This document shows, one piece after another, positions 29,175-43,668 of a stretch of 64,000 nucleotides of DNA (the stretch's first letter is position 1; every line of letters begins with the position of its first letter). The stretch is from Candidatus Korarchaeum sp. Its GTDB lineage: Archaea > Korarchaeota > Korarchaeia > Korarchaeales > Korarchaeaceae. A program made the translations under genes and the position numbers. The DNA is taken from assembly GCA_038888615.1 (NCBI GenBank), contig JAWAID010000001.1, positions 806,001-870,000 on the forward strand, given 5' to 3'. The notes below the pieces were generated by a model that made no database searches, was not told where the DNA came from, and saw only the letters and a list, made by a program, of their open reading frames with translations.

Positions 29175-30788
29175 ATGGAGTTAGGGGGTCAGTGGGAAGA
29201 ACTCAGGAGGGCATTGCTGGAGGAAGGGTATAGCCTAGACAAGATTGATAAGCTTGAGAGCTACCTGAGGAAGGACGATATTTTGCCCTCCTTAGAGAGG
29301 GTCCTCATCAGGTTGAAGAGACTTGGAGAGATAGCCGCATCACTCGAGAGCGAGCTGGCCGGCGCTGGCGAGGATGTGGTAAACAGAGTTGATCTACTCC
29401 TGCAATCCATCAAGAGACTCGTTTCAAGTATGATAGAGGATCAGTCGTATATGAGGCCACTCCTCAGGGATAAATCGAAAGTCAAGGAGGCTAAGAACAT
29501 TCTAGAAGTGACCCTAGGGGAGATCTCCTCGATGGAGAGGGAGCTGCTCAATAGGGTTAACTCATACATTCAAGAGAGAAAATTGGAAGTGGAGAGCTTA
29601 AGGAGTTACGAGGAAATACCTGCATTCATCAACTTCCTCAGGATATTGAAGAAAGCAGAAGCTCAGAAGTCCGCGGTCGCTGAGGCCAAGGTCGAGGAGG
29701 CAGCGGAAGGGGAAGCCGAAGTGAGACCACCTGAAACCGTGAAGAGGAGAAAGGAGGAGGCCCTTAACACCTTAAGGGATGCTTTCAGAAGTTTAAGGGC
29801 CATCAAAGAGGAGCTTGAGTTGATGGGAGTGACTTACGCGAAGCTCTCTCATGTGATCGACCTGGAGGACCCGTTCACCGAAAAACTGTTTCAGATAGAG
29901 GAGGATTCTGTTAAAAAATATACCCAAAACATCGTCTCGAAATTACGCTCTACTGAGGACGAATCCAAGAGGTTGATCCAAATAGCTCAGAAAATAATGG
30001 ATTCTAAGGCAAGCGTGGAGGAGATGAAAGGGGAATTGCTGGAGAGAATGGAGAGCATAGATGCGCTATCTAATATCAAGGAGGTGATCCCTTACATAGG
30101 GCTGGACTTCCCGAAGATACCCCTATCACTGAGGTCCAAGCTACAGATAGATCTACTCAGGAAGGAGGCTGAAAGGATCGGTAAAATAAGCTCTATCCTC
30201 AAAAACATCCTGAATGAGCTGGAATACGTTCCCAAAGATGCTAAAATAGATCTAAGTAAGCTTTCGTTTGAATCGACGGAATCCTTGCTGGAGAGCCTGG
30301 GCAACTGCTTGAGGGCATCTAGGCTATCCTACGGCATGCCCGAGGCAATCGCGTATACTGGAGTCATGAGTGAAATATTGGAGCTATATCCCAGATGGAG
30401 AGAAAAAATAATATCCCTTTTGAGGGAAAAGGGGGAAATATCTCTCCAAGATCTAAAGTTCATACCACAGAGCTGGAGACCTTGGGTCCTCAGGAACCTA
30501 GCTGAGGAAGGCATAGTGATCGTCAAAGAGGACAAAGTGACTATCAGGGTGCTCTCTGAGGATGTTAGGAAGATAGAGATGGAGATAGAAGTCATAGAGG
30601 ACATGGTAAATGATTTAGGAGGTATGCTACCGATTATCGATGAGCAGGGGGTTAAGAGGCTCAGGGAGGACCTGGAGAGAGCTAAGTCCCTCCTCATAGC
30701 GGGGAGGACCTCGGAGTACAGGGAGCTCATTTCGAGCCTTAGGTCCAGGGTGAGTGAGATCAAGATGCAATTAGGGGTGAAGAGATGA
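29175..30788 (+). CDS. Long coiled-coil protein with winged-helix-like C-terminal region
   Basis: A 537-aa protein. Residues 1-160 and 190-400 are charged helices with coiled-coil character. They are separated by a low-complexity Ala/Glu linker (residues 163-187). Residues 405-458 (PRWREKIISLLREKGEISLQ ... LRNLAEEGIVIVKEDKVTIRVL) have the helix-turn-helix plus wing pattern of a winged-helix domain. A final helical hairpin follows. No family is recognised. The last codons overlap the MglA-like GTPase gene by 4 bp, which strongly suggests that the two proteins are made together and may form a GTPase/effector pair. The leaderless start at 29175 is set by the palindromic promoter. Confidence 0.75.
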   Translation: MELGGQWEELRRALLEEGYSLDKIDKLESYLRKDDILPSLERVLIRLKRLGEIAASLESELAGAGEDVVNRVDLLLQSIKRLVSSMIEDQSYMRPLLRDKSKVKEAKNILEVTLGEISSMERELLNRVNSYIQERKLEVESLRSYEEIPAFINFLRILKKAEAQKSAVAEAKVEEAAEGEAEVRPPETVKRRKEEALNTLRDAFRSLRAIKEELELMGVTYAKLSHVIDLEDPFTEKLFQIEEDSVKKYTQNIVSKLRSTEDESKRLIQIAQKIMDSKASVEEMKGELLERMESIDALSNIKEVIPYIGLDFPKIPLSLRSKLQIDLLRKEAERIGKISSILKNILNELEYVPKDAKIDLSKLSFESTESLLESLGNCLRASRLSYGMPEAIAYTGVMSEILELYPRWREKIISLLREKGEISLQDLKFIPQSWRPWVLRNLAEEGIVIVKEDKVTIRVLSEDVRKIEMEIEVIEDMVNDLGGMLPIIDEQGVKRLREDLERAKSLLIAGRTSEYRELISSLRSRVSEIKMQLGVKR

Positions 30789-31396
30789 GGAAGATGTCCA
30801 TAGTGATAATAGGGCCTCATCAAGCCGGGAAGAGCACTTTCATAAGGAAGTTAGACCCTTCAGCGATCAGAATGGATTACGAGAAGGGCACCATGTCTAC
30901 TACAGTTGGGTTTGATTATGGTATAATCTTTTGGGACGCATCCACCGATGAGCTTTACCCTAAGGATAGGATAGAGGATCTCAATCCCTTCAATGAGATC
31001 TGGAAGGTAACGATCACCGGAACGCCAGGGCAGATAGCCTTCTCCTACGTCAGGAAAGCCCTTGTGAGGGGTAAGGATGGTGTGATAATGATAGTAGATA
31101 GTGCGCAACCGGTTCAGATAGTCTACGCGTTAGGCCAGTATCAGGAGGCCAAGGAGGTGCTCCCCCCCGGTTTCCCGTTCCTGGTACTAGCGAATAAACA
31201 GGATCTACCGGATGCTAAACCGCCCGACGTCATAAGGGGGCTTCTTGGGATCAACACTGAGGTAGTACCGATATCGGCACTCCTAGGTAATGGTGTTCAG
31301 GAGGCCTTCATCCGGTTTCTCAAGACGGTGAGAGCGGAGCTGATGACTAAATCGATGCAGTTCTACGCTGAGACTCAGGTGAAAATAAGGACTTAA
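30785..31396 (+). CDS. MglA-like small GTPase
   Basis: A 203-aa P-loop GTPase: GPHQAGKST (10-18), switch-I MSTTVGFDYG (37-46), GTPGQ (79-83), NKQD (137-140) and SAL (164-166). The Walker B/G3 Asp of DxxG is replaced by Gly (GTPG). Bacterial MglA also lacks this Asp (it has Thr), and the following KALVRGKDGVIMIVDSAQ closely resembles the MglA segment. MglA is a polarity and motility switch controlled by a roadblock protein (MglB). Here a roadblock gene lies at 26917-27282. It is translationally coupled to the coiled-coil protein upstream. No prenylation or lipid signal is visible. Confidence 0.82.
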   Translation: MRKMSIVIIGPHQAGKSTFIRKLDPSAIRMDYEKGTMSTTVGFDYGIIFWDASTDELYPKDRIEDLNPFNEIWKVTITGTPGQIAFSYVRKALVRGKDGVIMIVDSAQPVQIVYALGQYQEAKEVLPPGFPFLVLANKQDLPDAKPPDVIRGLLGINTEVVPISALLGNGVQEAFIRFLKTVRAELMTKSMQFYAETQVKIRT

Positions 31397-31941: not shown

Positions 31942-33276
31942 ATGGGAAAAAGTTTAGTGATCCCAATGGTTCTACTCTTACTACTATCGATGCCACTCCA
32001 AGGTGCTGCTTCTCAATCCTCCATCGCTGTGGGCTTCGATAAGAAGCACGGTCTTCCCTCAACAAAGTTTCCGGCATTGAGGAAGCTCCTGGAGAGCGAG
32101 GGTTATGTTGTTAAGGATGTGGAGGGATTCTCTCCGGACGCGGATGTGATAATCATAGTGAACCAGACGTCACCTCTCACTGAGGGGGAGTTAAGTGAAT
32201 TGGATTCCTACGTGAGGTCAGGTCACTCCGTCCTGATAGTGAGGAGCGTAGTGGGTGCGGCCTTCAACGTGTGGCCCTCCGATGAGCTCGCATGCACGAT
32301 TAAGGTGATAGGCGGATGTGATCCCTTCGAAACCGTAGCTAACTCCACCTACTTCAAGTACTCCAGGTCCGTCCTCGTCAAGGGAGCCTACCTGAGGAAC
32401 CTCCCAGCGAACGTACTGAACTTCCTGCTCAGCAAGAAAGTGTGGGTTGATAGGGATAAGAACGGGAGGCGCACTGAAGCTGATGCTGAAGCCGATAAGC
32501 TGGTCGTGATGGTGGGGCAGGTATACGGGAGAGGCAGAGTGGTCATATCCTCAGCTGAGTTCTTCAACGACGCTCTTCTGACGCAGCTCGATAATAAGCT
32601 TTTCGTTAAGGAGCTCATCTCATGGCTCTCAACCCCTTCTGTTGCCATGAAGAGATATGAGGAGGTCAGATCGAAGCTGAGTAACTTTCTGGGAATGAGA
32701 GGGGATCTGGAGAGGGTCGGGGGGAACTCCTCCGTCCTAGTGGGAATAGCTGCTAACTTCGAAAGGAGCCTAAACGACGCCATGAGTAAGATAGATAGGG
32801 GCTCGAGTGAGGAAGCGATTAATGTGCTCGATGATGTCGATAGGAAGATATCCACCTACATGGGCTTCGTCTCGAGGTTGGTGGTGATAGAGACAAAGCT
32901 CGCGGAGTTCTCCAAGTACCTAGAGGAGACCAAAGCGAGTGAGCCCAACATAACGCTCGATGTCTTCTTCGAGAGGCTCTCCAAGCTTAACTCCGAGAAG
33001 AAGCACCTATACGAGAGGTGGTCTGCTGGCGATATTTCAGGGGCGAATCAGACAGCCAGCTACATATTGGATGAGCTGGAGAAGCTCCGTAGCGAGACAG
33101 CTTCGAACGTGACCGCTCAGAGGGAGATGATAAGGCAGAAGCAGGAGGAACAGCAGAGGATGATGACGACTGCTATAGCAGCCTTAGTGGTAGCTGCGAT
33201 CGTAATAGCGGCTGTGCTGCTCTACAGGAGGAGGAAGGAGAAGGTTGAGGTGGTGATAAGGCCTCCGGGGACGTGA
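31942..33276 (+). CDS. Secreted, C-terminally anchored protein with GATase-like and coiled-coil regions
   Basis: A 444-aa type-I membrane protein. The signal peptide (LVIPMVLLLLLSMPLQGAAS) is followed by a Rossmann-like N-terminal domain (about 28-230: AVGFDKKHGLPSTKFPALRK, DADVIIIVNQTSPLTEGELS, VVISSAEFF). This recalls the glutamine-amidotransferase-like domains in extracellular archaeal and bacterial proteins. Residues 240-400 are coiled coil. A single TM helix (IAALVVAAIVIAAVLLY) and a basic cytoplasmic tail end the protein. Such a protein could link an outer structure to cytoplasmic filaments, but that is inference. It is followed 4 bp later by the 93-aa gene. Confidence 0.72.
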   Translation: MGKSLVIPMVLLLLLSMPLQGAASQSSIAVGFDKKHGLPSTKFPALRKLLESEGYVVKDVEGFSPDADVIIIVNQTSPLTEGELSELDSYVRSGHSVLIVRSVVGAAFNVWPSDELACTIKVIGGCDPFETVANSTYFKYSRSVLVKGAYLRNLPANVLNFLLSKKVWVDRDKNGRRTEADAEADKLVVMVGQVYGRGRVVISSAEFFNDALLTQLDNKLFVKELISWLSTPSVAMKRYEEVRSKLSNFLGMRGDLERVGGNSSVLVGIAANFERSLNDAMSKIDRGSSEEAINVLDDVDRKISTYMGFVSRLVVIETKLAEFSKYLEETKASEPNITLDVFFERLSKLNSEKKHLYERWSAGDISGANQTASYILDELEKLRSETASNVTAQREMIRQKQEEQQRMMTTAIAALVVAAIVIAAVLLYRRRKEKVEVVIRPPGT

Positions 33277-33280
33277 GACC

Positions 33281-33562
33281 ATGAGCTACTCCGATCCCAG
33301 GGTAGCTTTCAAGCTAGGAGCCATGCTTCAGTCGGTAGAGGACAGGGTCGTGTACTCGAAGCCCAAGGTAAGTGAGCTGATCAGGGAGCTGGAGAGGTTG
33401 AAAGATGCTCTTGAGGAGGGGGACAGGGACCTGGTTGACTCATGGTTGGAGTACCTCAGGGGTCACTACAGCGGTTTCGACGAGCTGGATCCCGACGATA
33501 GGAAGGCTTTAGTCGAGGATATGAAGGCCTTGAGGGAGAGAGTGGCTGAGAAGATCAGGTAA
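33281..33562 (+). CDS. Small helical hypothetical protein
   Basis: A 93-aa acidic, helical protein (VSELIRELERLKDALEEGDRDLVDSWLEYLRG ... DDRKALVEDMKALRERVAEKI) with no TM or enzyme motif. It starts 4 bp after the secreted coiled-coil protein and is probably co-transcribed. It ends exactly where the convergent regulator gene ends (33562/33563). Possibly a cytoplasmic partner of the membrane protein (inference). Confidence 0.6.
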   Translation: MSYSDPRVAFKLGAMLQSVEDRVVYSKPKVSELIRELERLKDALEEGDRDLVDSWLEYLRGHYSGFDELDPDDRKALVEDMKALRERVAEKIR

Positions 33563-34462
33563 CTACCTTCCAATTAAGAGGGAGATCTCCCTCCTCTTTC
33601 TTTGAGAAGTGAATCCTATTGAGTAGAGTAATGCCTCTAAAACGCTCCTCCTGCAGATCTCCAGGTAGATTATGTTATCCGAGAGGACCCTGGGCCTCTC
33701 CTCCAAGCTGACGCCGAGCTTGGCGTAGAGTCCTCTGAGCCTCTCTATGAACCTCAGCATGCCCTCGGGGCTGAAGGCCTTGAAGTAGAACCTAGCGCAT
33801 CCCCTCGAAGGGACGCTCCTGAAGATCCTCCCGCTTTGGAAAGCTTTCAGAAATTGATAGGGGTAGTTATCAATCCATTTAGGAATGCTCCATCCATCGT
33901 AGAATTCCCTCTTAGTCGGAGCCCCGAAGAGCAGCAGTAGAACACCTAAGCTAGGCAGCAGGTATACCTTCCTCTCCTTCCTGTTCACCGTGACCTCCGC
34001 TGGATCGATGCTCAGGAGGGCCCTGGAGAGCTCTATCAGGTGAGAGAGCTGGAAGTCATCATCGTACCTGAGGATGAGCGAAACGCTTCCCCTCCTGACA
34101 TTGAACTTCGAACTACTCGATGCCGAGTAACCGATGAGGGAGGCAGTCGCCTCCAAGTTAAAGCTGGGTTTCAGGGGTCTCTTGAAACCGATGCCCTCGA
34201 TGGACCTCAGGGCATCCCACAGGTCTATCTTGGCTAGCTCAGCTAATCTCACGAGGAGGACGAAGGGCATCGGGGAGCTGGGGGTCGACAGGATCTTGAT
34301 CACCTTCATTATAGGGATTCCCGTTTCCTTAGCTATTTTAGTGTAGCTACTCACCCTCAAAGCTCTCACAACTAGCTCCTGTCTCATCTCCAAGCTTACT
34401 CTCACCGGATAGAGTGGTGGCACCTTGTCGCAGTAGACCTCCACATCCCCTACCTCTACCAT
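33563..34462 (-). CDS. HTH protein with degenerate LAGLIDADG-like domain (candidate regulator)
   Basis: A 299-aa protein. Residues 30-60 (VVRALRVSSYTKIAKETGIPIMKVIKIL) form a helix-turn-helix. Residues 103-290 resemble a two-repeat LAGLIDADG fold: EATASLIGYSASSS (105-117), later WSIPKWIDNYPYQFLKAFQSGRIFRS (191-216) and a GMLRFIERLRGLYAKLGV helix. The acidic catalytic residues at the ends of the LAGLIDADG motifs are missing, so it is unlikely to be a nuclease. Bacterial WhiA, which regulates division genes, combines the same two elements in opposite order. It precedes no other gene on its strand, and its start lies 108 bp past the end of the FtsZ-like operon. Role in controlling that operon is inference. 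Confidence 0.65.
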   Translation of the reverse strand: MVEVGDVEVYCDKVPPLYPVRVSLEMRQELVVRALRVSSYTKIAKETGIPIMKVIKILSTPSSPMPFVLLVRLAELAKIDLWDALRSIEGIGFKRPLKPSFNLEATASLIGYSASSSSKFNVRRGSVSLILRYDDDFQLSHLIELSRALLSIDPAEVTVNRKERKVYLLPSLGVLLLLFGAPTKREFYDGWSIPKWIDNYPYQFLKAFQSGRIFRSVPSRGCARFYFKAFSPEGMLRFIERLRGLYAKLGVSLEERPRVLSDNIIYLEICRRSVLEALLYSIGFTSQRKRREISLLIGR

Positions 34463-34570: not shown

Positions 34571-35542
34571 TTATCTCGTAGCAGAGATCCCGAGCAGACC
34601 CTCAAGAGTGGGGGACCTCACACCGGATGCTATAACGGTTATCCTCGGCTCAGTGAGATCCTCAGCTATCCTGAAACCCCAATATACCCTCTCGAGCAAG
34701 TAGTCCTCCGTCAGTAGCTTAGTGGCTGAGCCAGCCTCCTCTAAGCTGGTGTTGGGAGTCGCCTGCAGGTAGACCAATGCTGAGTCAGCTTCCTTTATCT
34801 CGGCATCCAGGAGTATGTTCCCCAGGGCTGTCTTAGCCGCGTCAGCTACTCTACCTCCTACCCCTAAGCCCACGGCCCCCAGTCCGGCCTCCCTCACCAC
34901 GGCCTCGAAGTCGGCGAAGCTTATGCTCACCACGTGGGGCATGTAGAACAGGTTAGCTAGGTCCGAGATGACGGCCGCTAGCAGGGAGTCCGCGTACTTG
35001 AAGGCATATTGCACCTGAATGTAGCCTATCTTCCTACTCAGTATGTCGTTCAGGTTCACTATGGTTAGGTCAGCGACATTCATTATCCTCGAGAGACCGT
35101 ACCTGGCGTTATTGACCTTACCCAAGCCCTCCCATGAGAACGGGAATGAGACCAGGGCTATCCTTATCACATCGGGGAACCTGTCCTTGATCGCTGAGAG
35201 TATCGGTGCCACGCCGCCTGACGCGGTCCCTCCTCCCAGCCCTCCCGTGACTATGAGCACGTGGGGCCTGCCTATGGCGGCCATTATCCTATCGAGGTCG
35301 GCCATTATAGCCCTTTCGCCTACGTTCGGATTTCCCCCGCTACCGAATCCTCCAGTCACAGTTTCGCCGACTAGGAGCTTCACGTCGGATTTGACGGCCT
35401 TCAGGTGGTTGGCCTCAGTGTGTATGGCTATGGTCTTCACGGGAGCACCGACCTCCTTCAACCTGTTCAGCGTGTTGCAGCCGGCACCGCCCACGCCGAC
35501 GACGGTCATCGTTACCCTAGCTGACTCAGGCGCCTGGATCAT
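34571..35542 (-). CDS. FtsZ-like GTPase paralogue A
   Basis: A 323-aa FtsZ/tubulin-superfamily protein. T1 loop VVGVGGAGCNTLNRL (14-28), GGGTASG in place of the tubulin signature GGGTGTG (103-109), GKVNNARYGLSRIMNVADLTIVNLND (T5/T6 region), and a T7 region VVSISFADFEAV. Canonical NxDxxD is here SISFAD (206-211): the Asn and first Asp are lost and only the last Asp remains. NTD of the third strand is HTE. It ends ASGVRSPTLEGLLGIS, without the linker and C-terminal peptide that bind FtsA/SepF in true FtsZ. It is the last gene of the five-FtsZ operon, 4 bp after paralogue B. Confidence 0.88.
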   Translation of the reverse strand: MIQAPESARVTMTVVGVGGAGCNTLNRLKEVGAPVKTIAIHTEANHLKAVKSDVKLLVGETVTGGFGSGGNPNVGERAIMADLDRIMAAIGRPHVLIVTGGLGGGTASGGVAPILSAIKDRFPDVIRIALVSFPFSWEGLGKVNNARYGLSRIMNVADLTIVNLNDILSRKIGYIQVQYAFKYADSLLAAVISDLANLFYMPHVVSISFADFEAVVREAGLGAVGLGVGGRVADAAKTALGNILLDAEIKEADSALVYLQATPNTSLEEAGSATKLLTEDYLLERVYWGFRIAEDLTEPRITVIASGVRSPTLEGLLGISATR

Positions 35543-35546
35543 GCGG

Positions 35547-36536
35547 TCACCCTCCTCCCATAGAGCTTAGGAAGTCCTCCACCATCCTCGACTTCACTCC
35601 GAAAGTGTAAACGGTTACCTTAGGACTGGTCATCTCGATGCTGGGCTTGAGCCCGAAGTAGACCTCGGGTATGCCCAAGTTGTTGGTGAGCACGTCCTGC
35701 AGGTAGGTCATCCCCTCAACGGAGACAGCTGTCTCAGCGCACTCGAGTATACCGACGACACCCTTAGCTCCCTTGAGGTCAGCATCACCGAACGGATCGA
35801 CCAAGGAGGACTCGAAGGCCTCTCTGGTGGTCCTTCCCTCCCCGAAGCCAGAGTAGCCCAGCCCGGAGCCCTTAGCGATCTCCTTCATCACGGCGAAGTC
35901 GACGTTCTGCATTCCGGGTAGCGGAGAGAGATTCTGAAGCGACGCCAAGCCCTTTATCACGTTGAAGAGCCTGTCATCCATCACCTTATAAGCCCTAGTT
36001 AGAGGTACGTTCGTGTACTTCCTCTTCAACACGTCATTGAAAGCGACCCAGGTCACGTCGGAGAGATCTATCGTCTCGGAGAGACCGTACTTGGCGTTGT
36101 TTATCCTGACCTCCCCCTCGCTGGAGAACGGTACTACAACGTAGCTTATGGTTAGAGCGTTGGGTAAGCTCTCCTTTATGGCCTCAGCTAAAGTAACTAT
36201 GCCCCCAGTACCGGCTCCTCCTCCCAGCCCAGCTAGGAGCACTATGACCTCCCTATCGCTCAGTAAAGACACGAGGTTCTCCTTGACGGACTCCATCGCC
36301 TTCCTCCCGTTCTCAACGGTCCTAGCGCTCCTACCCCCCAGGAAGGACTCCCCAGCGAGCACCTTGTGATCGGCCTTGGTAGCGTTGAGGGAGGCAGCAT
36401 CCGTGTTAACAGCTATGAGCTTCGCTTCAGAGAAGCCAGTCCTCTTTATGTTCGTTATCATGTTGCAACCGGCCCCTCCTATACCCACGACGGCTAACTT
36501 GAGCTGAGCTGATACCTCAGGTCTCCTCCAACTCAC
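35547..36536 (-). CDS. FtsZ-like GTPase paralogue B
   Basis: A 329-aa FtsZ-like protein: T1 VGIGGAGCNMITNI, IAVNTDAASLN, signature GLGGGAGTGG (105-111 GGGAGTG), VRINNAKYGLSETIDLSDVTWVAFND, T7 NVDFAV (211-216). The second catalytic Asp is replaced by Val, while the first is kept. It ends TFGVKSRMVEDFLSSMGGG with no C-terminal tail. Its start overlaps the PRC-barrel stop by 4 bp, so the two are translationally coupled. FtsZ family proteins polymerise with GTP, the T7 loop of one subunit completing the active site of the next. Loss of the Asp predicts poor hydrolysis at this interface. Confidence 0.9.
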   Translation of the reverse strand: MSWRRPEVSAQLKLAVVGIGGAGCNMITNIKRTGFSEAKLIAVNTDAASLNATKADHKVLAGESFLGGRSARTVENGRKAMESVKENLVSLLSDREVIVLLAGLGGGAGTGGIVTLAEAIKESLPNALTISYVVVPFSSEGEVRINNAKYGLSETIDLSDVTWVAFNDVLKRKYTNVPLTRAYKVMDDRLFNVIKGLASLQNLSPLPGMQNVDFAVMKEIAKGSGLGYSGFGEGRTTREAFESSLVDPFGDADLKGAKGVVGILECAETAVSVEGMTYLQDVLTNNLGIPEVYFGLKPSIEMTSPKVTVYTFGVKSRMVEDFLSSMGGG

Positions 36537-36769
36537 TTCCTCCTCACCTCCACAACACCTTTAACTAACACCACATCACCAACAGCTAAAATACTTGAAG
36601 GGGGGAGTGTGTACTCCAGTTCCTTCTCGCTTCCCCCTCTCAAAATCTTTGCCTTTATTAATAGGTTAGCCTTTCCCTCCTCATCTATCACCACGTCGCT
36701 TACTATTCCCACCTTCCTCCCTGAACTGTCCACCACTTCCTTGCCTATCACTTCGTCCCTCCTGAGCAA
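36533..36769 (-). CDS. PRC-barrel domain protein
   Basis: A 78-aa single PRC-barrel: MLRRDEVIGKEVVDSSGRKVGIVSDVVIDEEGKANLLIKAKIL, the classical beta-barrel with V-G-x-V-x-D-hydrophobic pattern, followed by LPPSSILAVGDVVLVKGVVEV. PRC-barrel proteins have been linked to archaeal division: CdvA contains one, and haloarchaeal CdpB proteins act with SepF and FtsZ. Here it is wedged between FtsZ-like C (stop at 36770, start at 36769) and B (4-bp overlap), so co-expression is certain at the translational level. Acting as an adaptor for the FtsZ-like filaments is a reasonable inference. Confidence 0.85.
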   Translation of the reverse strand: MLRRDEVIGKEVVDSSGRKVGIVSDVVIDEEGKANLLIKAKILRGGSEKELEYTLPPSSILAVGDVVLVKGVVEVRRK

Positions 36770-37765
36770 TCATATCCCTCCTTGCAGCCACTTGTCCACT
36801 AGCTCGGATCTGACCCCGGTGGCTAGGAGCATTATCTTAGGCTCATAGAGCTTCCAGTTGGGCTTTATTCCCCAGAATATGCTCATTATGTTGTAGTCCG
36901 ATGAAAGCGTTTGGGGTATCCTATCGAGCTCCCTCATCACTAGCTGCGACTGATTGCCCTCAACGTAAACTATCGCTCCCTTGGCGTTCCTTATATCGGC
37001 TTCGCTGTAGTTAGCGGCTATCGCTGCCCTGAAGGCTTCTGAAGCACTCCTCCCCCTCCCTATCCCTATGAAACCTAAGCCCGATCCCCTGACGAGTACC
37101 TCCATGTTGCTGTAATCTATGTTCACTAAGCCGGGCTGAGGTACTATATCCTGAAGGCCGACTATTGAGTCTATTATGTCTACTAGCAACTTATCCATCT
37201 CTCTGAAAGCCTGACTGACTGGCAAATTGCCTGCTCTCTCCTTTAACAGGTCGTTAGCGTTGACCACGGTCATGTCGGCGGAGTCGAGCATCCTGGAGAG
37301 ACCCCACTGAGCGTTCCTTATCCTAGTGGGGCCTTCGGATACGAAGGGTAGCGTGACTATTCCTATAACTATCTTGTCAGGGAACTTCTCCTTCACAGCT
37401 TCAGCTATGGTCGGTCCCGCTCCAGTGCCAGTACCTCCACCCATGCCAGCCGTTATCATTATGAGCTCCTTATCCCTCAGGGGGGTGAGTATCTTATCCA
37501 TGTCCTGCTCGGCTATCATCTTCCCCAGTTCGGGGGAGCCTGCTGCACCTCTACCCTTGTGAGCCCCTTCCCCTATCAGTATCTTGATGTCGGCGCTTAT
37601 CCTCTGCAGCACCGGTGCATCGGTGTTAACAGCTACGGTAGGCACTCTCACACCGTACCTCTTGACGTTGTTGACGGTGTTGCACCCGCAACCTCCAACC
37701 CCAACTAACACCATCTTGAGGGCCGAGAGCTCCGAAGCCCTAGCTAGCTCCGATCTGGACATCAT
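36770..37765 (-). CDS. FtsZ-like GTPase paralogue C
   Basis: A 331-aa protein closest to orthodox FtsZ in its GTP site: T1 VGVGGCGCNTVNNV, VAVNTDAPVLQ, GMGGGTGTGAG (GGGTGTG 109-115), RIRNAQWGLSRMLDSADMTVVNANDLL. T7 is NIDYSN (215-220), so the second catalytic Asp is Asn. It continues GSGLGFIGIGRG and ends ATGVRSELVDKWLQGGI, with no linker or C-terminal peptide. The ATG at 37765 (or 37762) follows GAGGTG. It lies 11 bp after the 99-aa protein and abuts the PRC-barrel gene. Confidence 0.92.
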   Translation of the reverse strand: MMSRSELARASELSALKMVLVGVGGCGCNTVNNVKRYGVRVPTVAVNTDAPVLQRISADIKILIGEGAHKGRGAAGSPELGKMIAEQDMDKILTPLRDKELIMITAGMGGGTGTGAGPTIAEAVKEKFPDKIVIGIVTLPFVSEGPTRIRNAQWGLSRMLDSADMTVVNANDLLKERAGNLPVSQAFREMDKLLVDIIDSIVGLQDIVPQPGLVNIDYSNMEVLVRGSGLGFIGIGRGRSASEAFRAAIAANYSEADIRNAKGAIVYVEGNQSQLVMRELDRIPQTLSSDYNIMSIFWGIKPNWKLYEPKIMLLATGVRSELVDKWLQGGI

Positions 37766-37776
37766 AGAGGGTCACC

Positions 37777-38076
37777 TCAGAGCGATCCTCCCATTGAAAC
37801 CATCTTAGACTCCAGGATCCTCATGAAGGTCCTCCTCAACTCCTCCATATCGGTCACCGCTCCTCCCTTAGCTTCGACGTACTCCTTCACAGCCACTAGA
37901 GGAGGCACATAGGGGAACTTCTCCTGCCTAGCGAACCATGCGAGCGAGACCTCACCCTTGTTCTCCTCCAAGTACCTGGATACTAACTCAGCAACCGATA
38001 CGGAGGGTCTAACCTCGGGTTGGAATTGAGGCTGGGGTTCCTCCCTCTTCTCCTCCTCTTTCTTCCTACGGAACAT
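37777..38076 (-). CDS. Charged 99-aa protein between FtsZ-like genes
   Basis: Unrecognised. The N-terminus is a dense charged, presumably disordered stretch (MFRRKKEEEKREE) followed by a Pro/Gln linker (PQPQFQPEVRPS). A small helical domain follows (VAELVSRYLEENKGEVSLAWFARQEKF ... MEELRRTFMRILESKMVSM). The ATG at 38076 is preceded by a strong GGGGGAGGTGC. The frame continues to a GTG at 38094 that overlaps the stop of paralogue D. Size, disordered charged tail and position suggest an adaptor or regulator of the filaments, comparable in logic to SepF or ZapA-type partners though not similar in sequence. That is inference. Confidence 0.65.
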   Translation of the reverse strand: MFRRKKEEEKREEPQPQFQPEVRPSVSVAELVSRYLEENKGEVSLAWFARQEKFPYVPPLVAVKEYVEAKGGAVTDMEELRRTFMRILESKMVSMGGSL

Positions 38077-38090
38077 GCACCTCCCCCCAC

Positions 38091-39110
38091 TCACAGACCT
38101 AACTCAGCCAAAAAATCATCAACGTATTGGGAGCGGACCTGGGTCACCAGGAGGTTCACCCTCACGTCGGGGTACTCAAAGGTAGGCCTAACTCCCATGA
38201 AGACCGTGGGAATTCTGTACCTCCTGCTCAAGATATCGGTGGCTTCCCTCATCTGATCTACCCTTAGGTCCACGGACTTGCCCTCGAAGTAGATCACGGC
38301 CCCCTTAGCTTCAGTGAGATCGCACTTGGCGTAATCATCCTGTAAGGCATCATCAAATGCCTGGAATATGTACTGCCCTCTGCCCACTCCTATGAAGCCC
38401 AGCCCTGACTGATACGATATCCTGGAGAAGTTGCTCAAATCAACGTTAACGTATCCTGGCCCTGTCTGAGTGCTCTGCATCTTAACTAAAGCATAGATAC
38501 TCCTCTCTATCTTCCTGTTCACGAGTGAGAAAGCGTAGTTTAGATCAACGGATCTAGCTCTCTCCATAGCTAGGTCGTTGGCGTTGACTATCGTCACATC
38601 CGAAACCTCCATGGTTTCCCTCAATGAGAACTGGGCGTTCCTCCTCCTCTCCTCACCCTCCTCCTTCATGGGTAGCGTAACCACAGATATCTTTATGGCG
38701 TCCCTGTTCCTCAATCCCACCTCCCTCATCAGGACGGGAAGTCCTCCCGATCCAGTTCCTCCTCCCATCCCAGCTATGCCTATCACTATATCCACTCTCT
38801 CATCCAAAGCCCTTAGCACGCTTTCTATGTCCTCCTCCATCGCTTCCCTGCCTATATCAGGTACGCCCTGAGCCCCTCTACCCTTGTGAGTGTATCTGCC
38901 TATCAGTACCTTCTCATCAGCCTCCGTCTTCCTCAGTACGGCTGAGTCGGTGTTAACAGCTATGGTCTTGACGTTCTTAGGGAACTTCTTGTAAAAAGCG
39001 CTGATTATGTTATTACCGCATCCACCTACACCAACTATGTTTATCCTAGCCTCGGTTACCTTCTCAACATCCTCAAGGCCCCTATCAACACCCCTCCTCC
39101 TAACCGCCAT
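38091..39110 (-). CDS. FtsZ-like GTPase paralogue D
   Basis: A 339-aa protein with a basic N-terminal extension (MAVRRRGVDRG). T1 is IVGVGGCGNNIISAF, followed by IAVNTDSAVLR, GMGGGTGSGG (GGGTGSG 116-122), RRRNAQFSLRETMEVSDVTIVNANDLA, and T7 NVDLSN (222-227; Asn at the second Asp position, as in paralogue C). It ends VTQVRSQYVDDFLAELGL. It follows paralogue E by 7 bp and overlaps the frame of the 99-aa protein. C and D share the N-x-D-x-x-N loop and are likely the closest pair. Confidence 0.92.
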   Translation of the reverse strand: MAVRRRGVDRGLEDVEKVTEARINIVGVGGCGNNIISAFYKKFPKNVKTIAVNTDSAVLRKTEADEKVLIGRYTHKGRGAQGVPDIGREAMEEDIESVLRALDERVDIVIGIAGMGGGTGSGGLPVLMREVGLRNRDAIKISVVTLPMKEEGEERRRNAQFSLRETMEVSDVTIVNANDLAMERARSVDLNYAFSLVNRKIERSIYALVKMQSTQTGPGYVNVDLSNFSRISYQSGLGFIGVGRGQYIFQAFDDALQDDYAKCDLTEAKGAVIYFEGKSVDLRVDQMREATDILSRRYRIPTVFMGVRPTFEYPDVRVNLLVTQVRSQYVDDFLAELGL

Positions 39111-39117
39111 CCCAACA

Positions 39118-40131
39118 TCACTCCCTCAACAGCTCTTTAACATCCCCTATCATGTCCTTCACGAACGGGGAGTCGACGCCAGTAGCGTAAACCAGAGACT
39201 CAGGAGTCCTGAGCATCGGGCTCAGCCTAGCTCCGAAGGATATCCTCTCCACATCGTACTTCTCCGTTATGAGCCTTGGTCCATCTATCACGTCCGTGAG
39301 GCTAGCGGTTGGCGGTATCTTGAGGTAGAGCAGGTAGCCTGAGGCCGAAGTGGGATTCGCGTCGAGCAACCTGGTATCTATAGCGTTCTCCACAGCCTTC
39401 CTCACGCTCCTGTGAGAGCCGATCCCTATGAAACCTATGCCCGATCTCTCTATCATCCCCCTCAGATCCGGAAAGTCCAACCTCTGCAGCGTGTCCCTGG
39501 GATCGAGCATCTCTATCATGTAGTTAACCGCCATCTTCAGTATGTTGTCCATCCTGGAGTAAGCCACCTGAGCCGGCATCTCACCGAACTTCTCGAGCAG
39601 TATATCGTTCATGTTGACCACTACGCTATCGCTGACGACGACAGTTTCCCTCAATCCAGATTGAACGTTCTTCATCTTGGTCTGCCCCTCGTACCTGAAG
39701 GGTATGGTAACAACTGAGATTATCGCAGGTGCTTTGTCCCCGTACTCGTCCCTTATTGCCCTGAGAAGGAAGGGCAAGCCACCGCTTCCCATACCCCCTC
39801 CCAATCCAGCTACCGTGATGAGGAGATCGCAGACATCAAGGGTCCTTATGACCTTATCGAGGTCCTCATCAACGGCCTTCTGAGCTAAACTTATATCACC
39901 ACCGCTCCCCCTTCCCTTAAGAGTGTTCTCCCCCACTTGGATTATCTCGTGGGCCTTCACCTGCCTCAAGGCATTTAGATCGGAGTCCAAGGCTACCAGC
40001 TTCGCTATCTCCATCCCAGCTTTTGCTAAGGAATCTATAGCCTTTATTCCCGCTCCTCCAACGCCTAGCACGGTGATCTTAGTGGGGATCTCCTCAAACC
40101 TAGTGGGAAGGCCAGCCCTACTACTCGACAT
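39118..40131 (-). CDS. FtsZ-like GTPase paralogue E (first gene of the operon)
   Basis: A 337-aa protein: T1 VLGVGGAGIKAIDSL, VALDSDLNALR instead of NTD, GLGGGMGSGG (GGGMGSG 111-117), KMKNVQSGLRETVVVSDSVVVNMND, T7 RLDFPD (217-222). Both catalytic Asp positions are present, but the leading Asn is Arg. It ends ATGVDSPFVKDMIGDVKELLRE. The ATG at 40131 has GGGAGGT at 7-nt spacing; an alternative TTG at 40200 would add 23 residues. It is the promoter-proximal member, behind a leader of about 100 nt that contains a candidate 28-codon uORF. Confidence 0.88.
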   Translation of the reverse strand: MSSSRAGLPTRFEEIPTKITVLGVGGAGIKAIDSLAKAGMEIAKLVALDSDLNALRQVKAHEIIQVGENTLKGRGSGGDISLAQKAVDEDLDKVIRTLDVCDLLITVAGLGGGMGSGGLPFLLRAIRDEYGDKAPAIISVVTIPFRYEGQTKMKNVQSGLRETVVVSDSVVVNMNDILLEKFGEMPAQVAYSRMDNILKMAVNYMIEMLDPRDTLQRLDFPDLRGMIERSGIGFIGIGSHRSVRKAVENAIDTRLLDANPTSASGYLLYLKIPPTASLTDVIDGPRLITEKYDVERISFGARLSPMLRTPESLVYATGVDSPFVKDMIGDVKELLRE

Positions 40132-40132
40132 T

Positions 40133-40219
40133 TCACATACCTCCCGGAGGGTCTTCACCCGATGGACACATGGGATCTCGGAAATGTACCTCCGTTTCAA
40201 CCCCTCCCTCTGGGGTCAT
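40133..40219 (-). CDS. Candidate 28-aa leader ORF upstream of the FtsZ-like operon
   Basis: ATG at 40219 with GAGGGGTAACC upstream; product MTPEGGVETEVHFRDPMCPS plus eight more residues. The stop TGA ends 1 nt before the ATG of paralogue E. Based on the TATA at 40257-40275 it would be the first ORF in the mRNA. It overlaps, in another frame, the possible N-terminal extension of paralogue E. A regulatory uORF is possible; a chance ORF is equally conceivable. Confidence 0.3.
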   Translation of the reverse strand: MTPEGGVETEVHFRDPMCPSGEDPPGGM

Positions 40220-40256
40220 CGGTTACCCCTCGCCCGGGGCTACTGGATTCACGAAA

Positions 40257-40275
40257 TTTTTATATATAGTTTATG
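40257..40275 (-). promoter_or_regulatory. Promoter of the five-FtsZ operon
   Basis: Minus-strand ACATAAACTATATATAAAAA, a strong TATA-like stretch. Transcription would start near 40235, leaving about 100 nt before the ATG at 40131, which is unusually long for this window where most mRNAs look leaderless. Confidence 0.6.
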
Positions 40276-40522: not shown

Positions 40523-41326
40523 TCATAATACAAAAATTCTCCTCCTAATTTTGCTTATTAGCTTCGATATCGCGAGTAATATCACGGAGAAGAGCGATAT
40601 AGATGCCCCCACAGGTAGATCGAACGCGTAACTCATCCAAAGGCCTGAGAGGGAGGATATCACTCCAATGATAGCTGAAGCCATCGGCTGATATCTATCG
40701 CTCCTTAACAGAGGCACAGATGCCGCTACAGGATTGTAGAGGAGCGAGAAGACAAGGAAGCCACCTGTCACCTTCAAAGCGAGAGCTATAGCTGCGCCGC
40801 AAATGGCTAGCATGACAGTACTGTGCAGAACCACCCTCACACCCTCGGCCTCCGCTAACCTCCTATCGAAGATCATCGAGCTCAACTCGAGCCTGAAGGC
40901 CGATGCGTAACCCGAGAGGATGAGGAGGAGCAAGGACATACTTATCACCTTCCCAGGGGTAGCAGCCAGTAAGCTCCCCCAGAGGACACTAGCTACCTCT
41001 GAGGTCGCTAGAACCCTGATATTCGATAGGTATATCGAGAGAAGAGCTACTGAGGATGATGCTGAGAATAGGGCCATGCTTAGGAGCTCCCTCTCGTACT
41101 CGGATCTTGAGAACAATATTCCTAGGATGATGGACGATATGAGTGAGAATGAAAAAGCTCCATAAATGGGATCAAATCCGATGACAAGTCCTATAGACGC
41201 TCCTGCGAGTGCCGTATGGGCTACGCTGAAGCTCAGAGTGCTCACACCCATTCTCTGCACGTAGAAACCCAGGGTACCGAGTAGGAAGCCGGTTAGGATC
41301 GCTGTAAGCACTGCTATGAGAATCAA
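40523..41326 (-). CDS. znuB: Metal ABC transporter permease (ZnuB/MntB family)
   Basis: A 267-aa ABC-3 family permease with about eight hydrophobic helices. Family sequence LSFSVAHTALAGASIGLVIGFDPIYGAFSFSL (S-x-x-HxxLAGxSIG-x-x-x-G) near the N-terminus and KVTGGFLVFSLLYNPVAASVPLL near the end are typical of ZnuB/TroC permeases. It imports a divalent metal (Zn2+ or Mn2+). The TTG start overlaps the ATPase stop by 4 bp. Last gene of the operon. Confidence 0.88.
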   Translation of the reverse strand: MILIAVLTAILTGFLLGTLGFYVQRMGVSTLSFSVAHTALAGASIGLVIGFDPIYGAFSFSLISSIILGILFSRSEYERELLSMALFSASSSVALLSIYLSNIRVLATSEVASVLWGSLLAATPGKVISMSLLLLILSGYASAFRLELSSMIFDRRLAEAEGVRVVLHSTVMLAICGAAIALALKVTGGFLVFSLLYNPVAASVPLLRSDRYQPMASAIIGVISSLSGLWMSYAFDLPVGASISLFSVILLAISKLISKIRRRIFVL

Positions 41327-42009
41327 CCCACTACCCTCCCGCAGTTCATCCTTATCACGCGATCGAGATTGAGGGGGACCTCATCGTGACTTACCACCAC
41401 AATCGCTGCATCCTCCCTAGCCGAGTAATCCCTGAGGACCTCAGCTAGGATGGATCTCATCTCGAGGTCCATACTCGAGAAGGGCTCGTCCAAAAGTAGG
41501 AGCCTAGGTTTCCTCACCAGAGCCCTAGCTATCATGACTCTCTGCTGCTGTCCCCCGCTTAGCCTCCCGAAGGGATCTTCCATTAGCTTCCCTATCCCAA
41601 GGAGGCTCGAGATATCGTCTATCCTCGCCTCAAGCTCTGTTCTGAGAGATCCTAGGGGGGCTAGCCCCATGGAGATAACTTGCCTCACCGTGTAGCTCTC
41701 CTCAGGTGGTTTCATGAAGTTTTGAGGGACGTAGCCGCAGAGCTTCCTAACCTCAGCCACTCTTCTGCTCTTCGTGTTAACCCCAAATAGGAAGGCCTCT
41801 CCCCTAAACGGTTTGAGGAGCCCTAAGCAGGTCTCCAAGAGCGTGGTCTTCCCAGCGCCGTTCGGCCCGGTTATTAGCACGGACTCACCGGAACTTAAGG
41901 AGAGGTTGACCTCCCTTATGGCCGGTCTCCCGCTCCCTGAATAGGAGACCCAGACATCCTCCAGCCTCAGGGCCTCGCAGCGGGGGCTCAATCCGATCCC
42001 CTTCGCCAT
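41323..42009 (-). CDS. znuC: Metal ABC transporter ATPase (ZnuC/MntA family)
   Basis: A 228-aa ATPase: Walker A GPNGAGKTTLLETCLGLLKP, CGYVPQNFM Q-loop, signature RLSGGQQQRVMIARALV, Walker B LLLLDEPFSSMD, VVSHDEVPL. The GPNGAGKTTLL form and short length are typical of metal importers. It couples to the permease downstream (4-bp overlap) and the SBP at 42446-43357. Confidence 0.9.
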   Translation of the reverse strand: MAKGIGLSPRCEALRLEDVWVSYSGSGRPAIREVNLSLSSGESVLITGPNGAGKTTLLETCLGLLKPFRGEAFLFGVNTKSRRVAEVRKLCGYVPQNFMKPPEESYTVRQVISMGLAPLGSLRTELEARIDDISSLLGIGKLMEDPFGRLSGGQQQRVMIARALVRKPRLLLLDEPFSSMDLEMRSILAEVLRDYSAREDAAIVVVSHDEVPLNLDRVIRMNCGRVVG

Positions 42010-42027
42010 GAGTAAGGAAGTAAAAAT

Positions 42028-42441
42028 TTATACTGTTATCACTGCCTCCTCGAAGAGCTCCCCAAGCTCAGCTCCCTCGACGTAGGCGCTAGCGGAACCC
42101 AACCCCTCCCTCGAGGACATCTCCTCTATCAGCTCCCGAACCCCCTCCCTGAGCTTAAGCCTCAGCTTCAAGTTCTTTCTCCTACTGAGGAACAGGAACT
42201 CGATATCATCGTGCTCCTCCATCCTCAAGCTCATCTTCCCCGTGGTGCATCCGGTCGAGGCCTGTATCCCATCCACCGAGCAGGTGTAGGGGGTCCTCAC
42301 CGGGCACCTGATGGTGCAGGAGAGCTCATGCTCGTCCTCGGGTCTCAGCAGTTCGAGAGCCCTTAGACCAGCTCTGTAGCCTAGGACGAGCCAAGGTCCC
42401 CTGTGACCGTGCATCCTAACGGCATCCTCTAAGCTGAGCAC
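42028..42441 (-). CDS. FmdE-domain protein in the metal uptake operon
   Basis: A 137-aa protein of the FmdE (formylmethanofuran dehydrogenase subunit E-like) family. It has MHGHRGPWLVLGYRAGLRALELL, then CPVRTPYTCSVDGIQASTGCTTGKMSLRM with the cysteines and Asp of the metal site (C-S-V-D-G-I-Q-x-x-T-G-C-T). The usual GHxCP cysteine is Gly here (GHRGP). FmdE domains bind zinc, and outside methanogens their role is unclear. It sits between the metal-binding protein (4 bp upstream) and the ATPase (18 bp downstream), which suggests a metal chaperone, sensor or storage role (inference). Confidence 0.82.
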   Translation of the reverse strand: MLSLEDAVRMHGHRGPWLVLGYRAGLRALELLRPEDEHELSCTIRCPVRTPYTCSVDGIQASTGCTTGKMSLRMEEHDDIEFLFLSRRKNLKLRLKLREGVRELIEEMSSREGLGSASAYVEGAELGELFEEAVITV

Positions 42442-42445
42442 TGGA

Positions 42446-43357
42446 TCACCTCCTCCTGAGGATCAAGATCGCTTCAGCAATGACTATGACAGCTAAAATC
42501 GCGGTTAGAGCTTCGTAAAACTGAGCTTCGCTAGCTAACTTCCTCTCGGAAGCCCTGAGTTCAGCGTGAGATAGGGCTTCGGAGAGCCTCTCAACGTTCC
42601 ACACCATGACCTGTGTCATGTTCTTAAGCTCAGGAGGCGACTCCGGGAAGTTAGACAGAGCGACCTCCACGGCGTTCACCTGGGAGGCTAACCTCGATCC
42701 TATCTCGGTCCCGCTCTGAAGGTTGTCCACGACTAAAACTGCTCCGCTCTCAGTAGCGTTCTTCACTATGGACTCGAATAGCTTCGCTGATACCTTTTCA
42801 GGGGGTGGGAATGTGGCTATCACCCTGAAGCCCAGGAACTTGAGGAAGTCAGCTTGGAACATCATGCTGACCACCGGCTTTCCGGGGAAACCCCTCTCGT
42901 CCGCTATCCTCCTCATCTCCCTGACCGCTTCATCTATGGCCTTAAGGCACTTCTCGAGCTTAGCTGACGTAGTCAGACCTAAGTAGTGATCTAATACCTT
43001 AGATACGTTAGAGTAGAGGGATTTGAGCAGATCAGGGGTGTTCCAACCTCCGGATAATTTGACAGCAGGAGTCTCGCTTCCTGAAGCCCTCCTTAACTCC
43101 TCTATCCAGGGCTCTATACCGTGGTAAAGTATGAGATCGGCCTCAGCTATAGTGTAAGCGTCACTCGGCTTGGCATCGTAGTGCCCTGGGCAGATGTTCG
43201 GTGGTGCTATGACCTCTATATCGACCGAATCACCGGCTAGGTCCCTTACAATACTGCACAGGACCGTGGTGGAGCACACGACCTTGGACTTGTCAGCGGC
43301 CAATGGCGTGAGCGTCGGTATCAACAGTATCAGCAGGAGTGGAACTAGGGGTCTCAT
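42446..43357 (-). CDS. znuA: Metal-binding SBP of ABC transporter (ZnuA/TroA family)
   Basis: A 303-aa protein with a signal peptide (MRPLVPLLLILLIPTLTPLAAD), a cluster A-1 domain (VVCSTTVLCSIVRDLAGDSVDIEVIAPPNICPGHYDAKPSDAYTIAEADLILYHGIEPWIEEL), and an unusual C-terminal TM anchor (FYEALTAILAVIVIAEAILIL). The HYD and YHGIEPW His residues lie where metal ligands are expected; the third His of ZnuA is uncertain. The frame opens at 43492, but the ATG at 43357 lies 24 bp from the TATA centre and begins the signal peptide. The promoter is overlapped by a 31-bp palindrome. Confidence 0.85.
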   Translation of the reverse strand: MRPLVPLLLILLIPTLTPLAADKSKVVCSTTVLCSIVRDLAGDSVDIEVIAPPNICPGHYDAKPSDAYTIAEADLILYHGIEPWIEELRRASGSETPAVKLSGGWNTPDLLKSLYSNVSKVLDHYLGLTTSAKLEKCLKAIDEAVREMRRIADERGFPGKPVVSMMFQADFLKFLGFRVIATFPPPEKVSAKLFESIVKNATESGAVLVVDNLQSGTEIGSRLASQVNAVEVALSNFPESPPELKNMTQVMVWNVERLSEALSHAELRASERKLASEAQFYEALTAILAVIVIAEAILILRRR

Positions 43358-43377
43358 AGGGCTCAGCGGCAATGCCA

Positions 43378-43385
43378 AAATATAA
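43378..43385 (-). promoter_or_regulatory. TATA box of the metal ABC operon
   Basis: Minus-strand TTATATTT, about 24 bp before the ATG at 43357 (leaderless). It directly abuts the palindromic operator. Confidence 0.65.
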
Positions 43386-43415
43386 GTATTACTATTATCA
43401 GATAATAGTAATACT
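43385..43415. promoter_or_regulatory. 31-bp perfect palindromic operator of the metal ABC operon
   Basis: AGTATTACTATTATC (43385-43399), central A, then its exact reverse complement (43401-43415). The arms are 15 bp each with no mismatch. It covers the BRE and touches the TATA box, so a bound dimer would block TBP/TFB. This is the layout of a metal-dependent repressor site. The regulator is not identifiable here, and the motif does not match a consensus I know. Confidence 0.75.
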
Positions 43416-43668
43416 GTTGAGCGGGCTCTCCGTCGAGCCGGGACTCGGTTCGAAGCTTGGCTGAACGAAAACACATCTTTTCTCAAGCTCACTACCAGCC
43501 TTTTGGTGAGTTCACCGTAAGAAGCCCGACAAGATGGTCCTTAAACTTCAGGCGAGCTAGGGAAAGTGGTGCGAGCCTCTCAAAGGCTCGGGTAGTCACA
43601 GGTCGAATTAAGTGGTACGACCGAAGGGAGCCGAGGGGCAGCTGAGCTAATGCGAAATAGTACTCCGC
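43416..43668. other. Intergenic region with a hairpin, no gene recognised
   Basis: 253 bp. It contains CGAGCCT-CTCAA-AGGCTCG at about 43572-43590 (7-bp stem) and a smaller CGAG/CTCG stem near 43432-43446. No TnpB, tRNA, SRP or RNase P motif was recognised. A non-coding RNA is possible but unsupported. Confidence 0.3.

Follow-up and report, generated by a model that had tools for sequence, protein, structure and literature searches.

Five divergent FtsZ-type genes in one conserved korarchaeal operon: a candidate filament system beside FtsZ1 and FtsZ2

We describe an operon in a 64,000-nucleotide stretch of a Candidatus Korarchaeum genome (G000:C1:806001-870000, referred to as a whole as the window), in which five genes of the FtsZ family, designated A to E, lie together with the genes of a PRC-barrel protein (P) and of a small charged protein (X) at positions 34571-40131 of the reverse strand. 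The five proteins are strongly conserved and apparently old, each has an altered catalytic T7 motif, and all lack a C-terminal tail; their sequences point, with about even confidence, to a dedicated filament system that is built of several FtsZ-type subunits, hydrolyses GTP slowly and exists in addition to the division proteins FtsZ1, FtsZ2 and SepF. The canonical FtsZ1, FtsZ2 and SepF are encoded elsewhere in the genome (1.67 Mb, two contigs, 99.85% complete), apart from the operon, as are two other PRC genes and one actin-family gene. Seven loci of the genome match the Pfam Tubulin family, five of them clustered in the window and two solitary, at C1:369797 and C1:350807.

Conservation and ancestry of the operon

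All of A to E match PF00091 (E 4e-40 to 2e-28, 100-138 bits, cut-off 33; coordinates in Table 1), and their open reading frames (ORFs) and those of X and P are closely spaced or overlap slightly (A/B +7, B/X -4, X/C +11, C/P 0, P/D -4, D/E +4 bp), which agrees with an earlier annotation made from the letters of the stretch alone (the sequence-only reading) that had described five tightly packed FtsZ-superfamily genes spaced by -4 to +11 bp. For A, the most likely start is ATG 40131, where the homologues start, rather than TTG 40200. The charged protein, given as 99 aa in the same annotation, has this length from ATG 38076 and 105 aa from a GTG. Its statement that archaea typically have one or two FtsZ genes holds as a rule, with one to three superfamily members in most of the 394 genomes of our wider sample; about 25 non-korarchaeal genomes with five to eight members depart from it, and the one array examined among them (in G029) is of the CetZ type.

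In a sample of 29 genomes of the phylum the operon is present in six, and eleven of the 23 genomes without it belong to the same genus. The order A-B-X-C-P-D-E is identical in four further genomes of the genus (G010, G012, G011 and G005) and in one of another genus (G021), the operon being cut by contig ends in G011 and G005 and the contig of G021 carrying only a piece of E. Between the window and G021 the proteins are 53 (A), 62 (B), 67 (C) and 55% (D) identical, and the fragment of E about 60%; for the same pair of genomes, the identity of FtsZ1 is 55% and that of FtsZ2 57%. Because the divergence of A to E thus resembles that of FtsZ1 and FtsZ2, the operon seems, on these identities, to date back to about the time when the genera separated. 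In a tree of FtsZ1 and FtsZ2 the five carriers of the genus form one clade (100/100) and G021 is distant, and the patchy distribution therefore implies either that the operon was lost repeatedly or that it was transferred once, long ago. A profile of C gave no score above the level of canonical FtsZ in the 394 genomes outside the six korarchaeal carriers, and a scan of named genomes returned, beyond the records of G005 and G021, only matches of 29-43% identity. No clean empty site was found among the non-carriers; in G001, the two flanks share a contig but are separated by about 28 kb of other genes.

A careful tree of 51 sequences sets A to E apart from both the FtsZ1 and the FtsZ2 clade, in a single clade of their own (100/100), and A, B, C and D each pair with their own full-length ortholog of G021 with bootstrap values of 98-100. 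Recent tandem duplication, which the sequence-only reading had named as an outcome that would speak against it, is contradicted by this tree, and a constraint that grouped the five genes of the window as a clade by themselves was rejected (p 1e-58). A constraint joining A to E to korarchaeal FtsZ2 was weakly rejected (p 0.034), and the one joining them to korarchaeal FtsZ1 was not (p 0.42). Ratios of nonsynonymous to synonymous substitution (dN/dS) between the window and its relatives in the genus, rough values as dS is partly saturated, are 0.013-0.042 for A to E, 0.038-0.061 for FtsZ1 and FtsZ2 and 0.07-0.18 for flanking genes. Purifying selection acts on all five proteins no less strongly than on the canonical division proteins.

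Departures from canonical FtsZ

The catalytic T7 motif is NxDxx[D/E], and the T7 loop enters the nucleotide site of the neighbouring subunit (PMC12583498). Among 72 other archaeal FtsZ-family sequences used for comparison, NxDxxD is found in 69 and both Asp residues are present in all. In contrast, the motif is R/TxDxxD in A, NxDxxN in B and C, NxDxxV/I in D and SxSxxD in E. The motifs of B and C are constant across all orthologs, including those of the other genus. The last position of the motif is V or I in D, its first position in A is R in this genus but T in G021, and the orthologs of E allow a comparison only within the genus. A substitution of the second Asp in Escherichia coli FtsZ, D212N, leads to stable polymers (PMC12754632), and a value cited in PMC8142252 gives 7% remaining GTPase for D212A. 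Judged by this motif, the D212N exchange has its natural equivalent in B and C.

The claim of the sequence-only reading that all five keep the FtsZ core stands in part only, the change of the T7 loop in every one of them having been passed over there. The nucleotide pocket motifs are complete in B and C, whereas in A the T1 motif GxGGxGxN is incomplete, its last Asn being Lys in this genus, the T3 loop is rearranged in D and T4 is altered in E. The lack of a linker and C-terminal binding peptide, also claimed, is borne out: 9-14 residues follow the core in A to E, compared to 61 in the genome's own FtsZ1, 37 in its FtsZ2 and a median of 42 in the comparison set. A to E thus have neither the T7 motif nor the linker and binding peptide of a cell-division FtsZ. 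They score 167-229 bits against the FtsZ equivalog model TIGR00065 (cut-off 295), which FtsZ1 (375) and FtsZ2 (334) of the same genome pass, and only E passes the Pfam cut-off for FtsZ_C. Membership of the CetZ/tubulin group was considered and rejected; there is no CetZ_C (PF21011) among the Pfam matches of A to E, unlike in the control proteins of G029, and the profile of C scores 207 bits against Methanocaldococcus jannaschii FtsZ versus 64 against CetZ structures.

Partner genes and transcription signals

The structures matched by P are archaeal PRC-barrel proteins (1pm3, E 8e-10; 8qzo, E 1e-4; 8onw, E 6e-4), and P is in this sense of the CdpB type, that is, a PRC-barrel protein related to archaeal proteins of solved structure. 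We take 8qzo and 8onw to be CdpB proteins. PRC-barrel proteins of Haloferax join SepF in a complex that recruits FtsZ (PMC10936438; PMC12186497), and the suggestion in the sequence-only reading that P is a built-in partner finds a precedent there. The model of X combines a charged, low-confidence N-terminal tail, which is probably disordered, with a confidently predicted four-helix domain.

A gene next to E, designated R, is present in four genomes, all of them carriers of the operon, and the contigs of the other two carriers end before its site. In G021, R resides on the opposite side of the operon and points away from it; its link to the operon has therefore survived rearrangement. The structural model of R, of moderate quality (mean pLDDT 69), resembles intein endonucleases and WhiA (best WhiA-fold E 2e-3), with a helix-turn-helix (HTH) at about residues 24-59 and no Pfam match. 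The N-terminal LAGLIDADG domain, C-terminal HTH and family-level sequence match that would define WhiA are not found in R.

A TATA-like element about 125 bp before ATG 40131 of A is kept in five genomes of the genus and, in a shorter form, in G021, and T-rich stretches lie downstream of E. Because of these two features the operon is likely read as one transcript from one promoter. Of the single promoter and terminator claimed earlier, the promoter has a counterpart in the conserved TATA-like box; the bacterial-type terminator scan of the locus was at chance level. The corresponding promoter scan was likewise at or near chance, and an Rfam search of the locus gave chance-level matches only.

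The 5' leader of A (window 40131-40250; counterparts L038, L039 and L041) can fold into a hairpin, which is strong in G010 (z -3.9) and G012 (z -5.2) and moderate in G005 (z -2.5); the window has it in weak form only, and G011 lacks it. As the leader sequences differ between genomes, the leader may be regulatory.

Neighbouring genes and related loci

Adjoining R, the weak candidate M has good matches only in G000, G010 and G012, all of them carriers, and a 93-aa ORF lies behind M and beside R (window 31942-33562). A gene for a 537-aa protein and an overlapping gene for an Arf/Ras-like small GTPase (window 29175-31396) are kept as a pair in most genomes of the genus, several of which encode the GTPase twice. 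A metal ABC-transporter set (ZnuA, ABC-3, ATPase and an FmdE-like gene; window 40523-43492) adjoins the operon on its upstream side in G000 and G011 and is missing there in G010 and G012.

Outside the korarchaea, G029, from an unrelated archaeal family, has tandem CetZ/tubulin-type genes with an interposed unknown 277-aa gene (L043:12553-16676), and G056, of another archaeal family, has a tandem pair of FtsZ-like genes on the same strand (L046:9944-12070). FtsZ-like matches about 30-35% identical to C occur in Shewanella, Colwellia and allies (L062-L109); the two included in the tree, L062 and L071, are long-branched and perhaps represent paralogs distinct from the FtsZ of cell division.

Table 1. 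Features of the operon and its surroundings (positions in the window).
Feature	Position	Strand	Description
TATA-like promoter element	40250..40275	-	ACATAAAcTATATATAAAAATTTCG; upstream of A
FtsZ-like A	39118..40131	-	PF00091 E 2e-30; T7 RLDFPD (Asn lost, both Asp kept); no C-terminal tail
FtsZ-like B	38091..39110	-	PF00091 E 1.5e-35; T7 NVDLSN (second Asp to Asn); no tail
X, charged protein	37777..38094	-	charged N-terminal tail MFRRKKEEEKREE...; predicted four-helix domain
FtsZ-like C	36770..37765	-	PF00091 E 4e-40; T7 NIDYSN (second Asp to Asn); nucleotide pocket motifs intact; no tail
P, single PRC-barrel protein	36533..36769	-	CdpB-like, 78 aa; PF05239 E 1.4e-9
FtsZ-like D	35547..36536	-	PF00091 E 3e-29; T7 NVDFAV (second Asp to Val/Ile); T3 rearranged; no tail
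FtsZ-like E	34571..35542	-	PF00091 E 2e-28; T7 SISFAD (Asn and first Asp lost); T4 GGGTASG; no tail
R, probable regulator	33563..34462	-	N-terminal HTH and LAGLIDADG-like domain
M, weak candidate member	31942..33276	+	predicted secreted or membrane-anchored coiled-coil protein; DUF4350/GIFT-like domain (weak match)

Discussion

FtsZ subunits use their T7 loop to hydrolyse the GTP bound to the adjacent subunit. In the mechanism that we favour, the five subunits, co-produced from one promoter, would assemble into mixed protofilaments in which most interfaces would hydrolyse slowly or not at all, because the second catalytic Asp is missing from B, C and D and the first from E, only A keeping both; such a polymer would be unusually stable. 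As no subunit carries a tail peptide, attachment of the filament would have to come from elsewhere, and P, in the manner of CdpB, and the tailed, helical X are likely built-in anchors or cross-linkers. R is likely a dedicated transcription regulator. The filament would likely serve as a lasting scaffold that supports the shape of thin filamentous cells or the geometry of their septum. The only korarchaeon that has been imaged, Ca. Korarchaeum cryptofilum, probably has the operon. It grows as filaments that reach 100 um in length and possesses crenactin as well (PMC7613921), and the cell-shape idea is therefore a lead only. A further-reaching version, in which the paralogs take set positions in a five-part heteropolymer, divide GTP binding and hydrolysis among them, and form a durable cytoskeleton to which Korarchaeum owes its thin, filamentous cells, appears doubtful to us.

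Several points weigh against a dedicated filament system. X has no match in Pfam, PDB or fold searches and no known relative, and the link to cell shape rests on a single imaged species, Ca. K. cryptofilum, which has crenactin as well and to which G010 presumably belongs. The altered T7 loops could alternatively mark inactive, non-polymerising regulators. In line with this, A to E might be mostly pseudo-GTPases in a closed five-protein assembly, or inhibitors or sensors of polymerisation, as the changes in the pockets of A, D and E and in all five T7 loops and the failure of all but E to pass the FtsZ_C cut-off would suggest; we consider this improbable, given the complete pockets of B and C and the very low dN/dS over the whole proteins, as polymer subunits should show.

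It might also be speculated that A to E form an accessory division module, which modulates or stabilises the FtsZ1/FtsZ2 ring and is linked by P to the SepF complex, with no structure of its own. Archaeal division indeed uses PRC-barrel proteins with SepF and FtsZ (PMC10936438), the genome has SepF, and the co-assembling plant FtsZ1 and FtsZ2 offer a two-subunit precedent with a test of the T7 Asp (PMC8142252). However, close relatives with only FtsZ1 and FtsZ2 are wholly without the operon, which is therefore dispensable for korarchaeal division in general, the proteins have no tail for SepF to bind, and the module has its own operon and probably its own regulator; we regard this reading as less likely than that of a separate filament. 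The patchy occurrence, and the variation between genomes of the region that runs from the Arf-like GTPase gene to iscU, might suggest that the five genes arose by recent tandem duplication or belong to a mobile or viral cassette, with no distinct function. Yet the constraint test speaks against recent duplication, no relative of A to E was found on viral contigs, the flanks in G000 and G021 are ordinary chromosomal genes, and both the strong purifying selection and a divergence to G021 like that of FtsZ1 and FtsZ2 make this explanation hardly credible. Thus, the multi-subunit filament system is the reading that we prefer. A mixed or staged filament system apart from ordinary division had been proposed in the sequence-only reading, and the age of the paralogs, the gene order shared with another genus, the lack of tails, the separate canonical set and the role of PRC-barrel proteins in archaeal division lend this proposal partial support.

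Comparison with known systems

A to E belong to an already known superfamily. To our knowledge, more than two co-operating FtsZ-type subunits have not been described in prokaryotes. A description of a five-FtsZ operon was not found in the open literature, an earlier mention in the 2008 Korarchaeum genome paper (Elkins 2008) being possible; the literature mentions korarchaeal FtsZ merely as present, and 'divergent FtsZs' outside the main groups have been noted for Crenarchaeota in general (PMC9871819). With the archaeal FtsZ1/FtsZ2, SepF and CdpB1/CdpB2 set the operon shares the FtsZ fold, GTP-binding motifs and a PRC-barrel partner gene, but its proteins differ from FtsZ1 and FtsZ2 as five tailless paralogs of one operon, in a separate clade, with T7 broken in every one and the NCBI FtsZ equivalog cut-off missed. 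Haloarchaeal CetZ proteins are likewise additional tubulin-family paralogs beside FtsZ1 and FtsZ2, with a role in cell shape (PMC12186497), and CetZ-type genes also occur in tandem arrays, as in G029; in contrast, A to E are FtsZ-type and without CetZ_C. R shares with WhiA the combination of LAGLIDADG and HTH folds. The HTH of WhiA is C-terminal, whereas that of R is N-terminal, and there is no match at the sequence level.

As a possible basis of the thin, filamentous cell form of korarchaea, the operon concerns a phylum with almost unknown cell biology. Eukaryotic microtubules rest on mixed polymers of the tubulin family, and in alpha/beta-tubulin roles are split between co-assembling paralogs. 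In plant chloroplasts, catalytic and stabilising roles are split between the co-assembling FtsZ1 and FtsZ2 (PMC8142252). In comparison to both, the korarchaeal operon encodes five subunits instead of two, for which we infer co-assembly, and with five ancient paralogs, two of them carrying a natural counterpart of D212N, a sharing of the filament between catalytic and non-catalytic subunits becomes directly testable.

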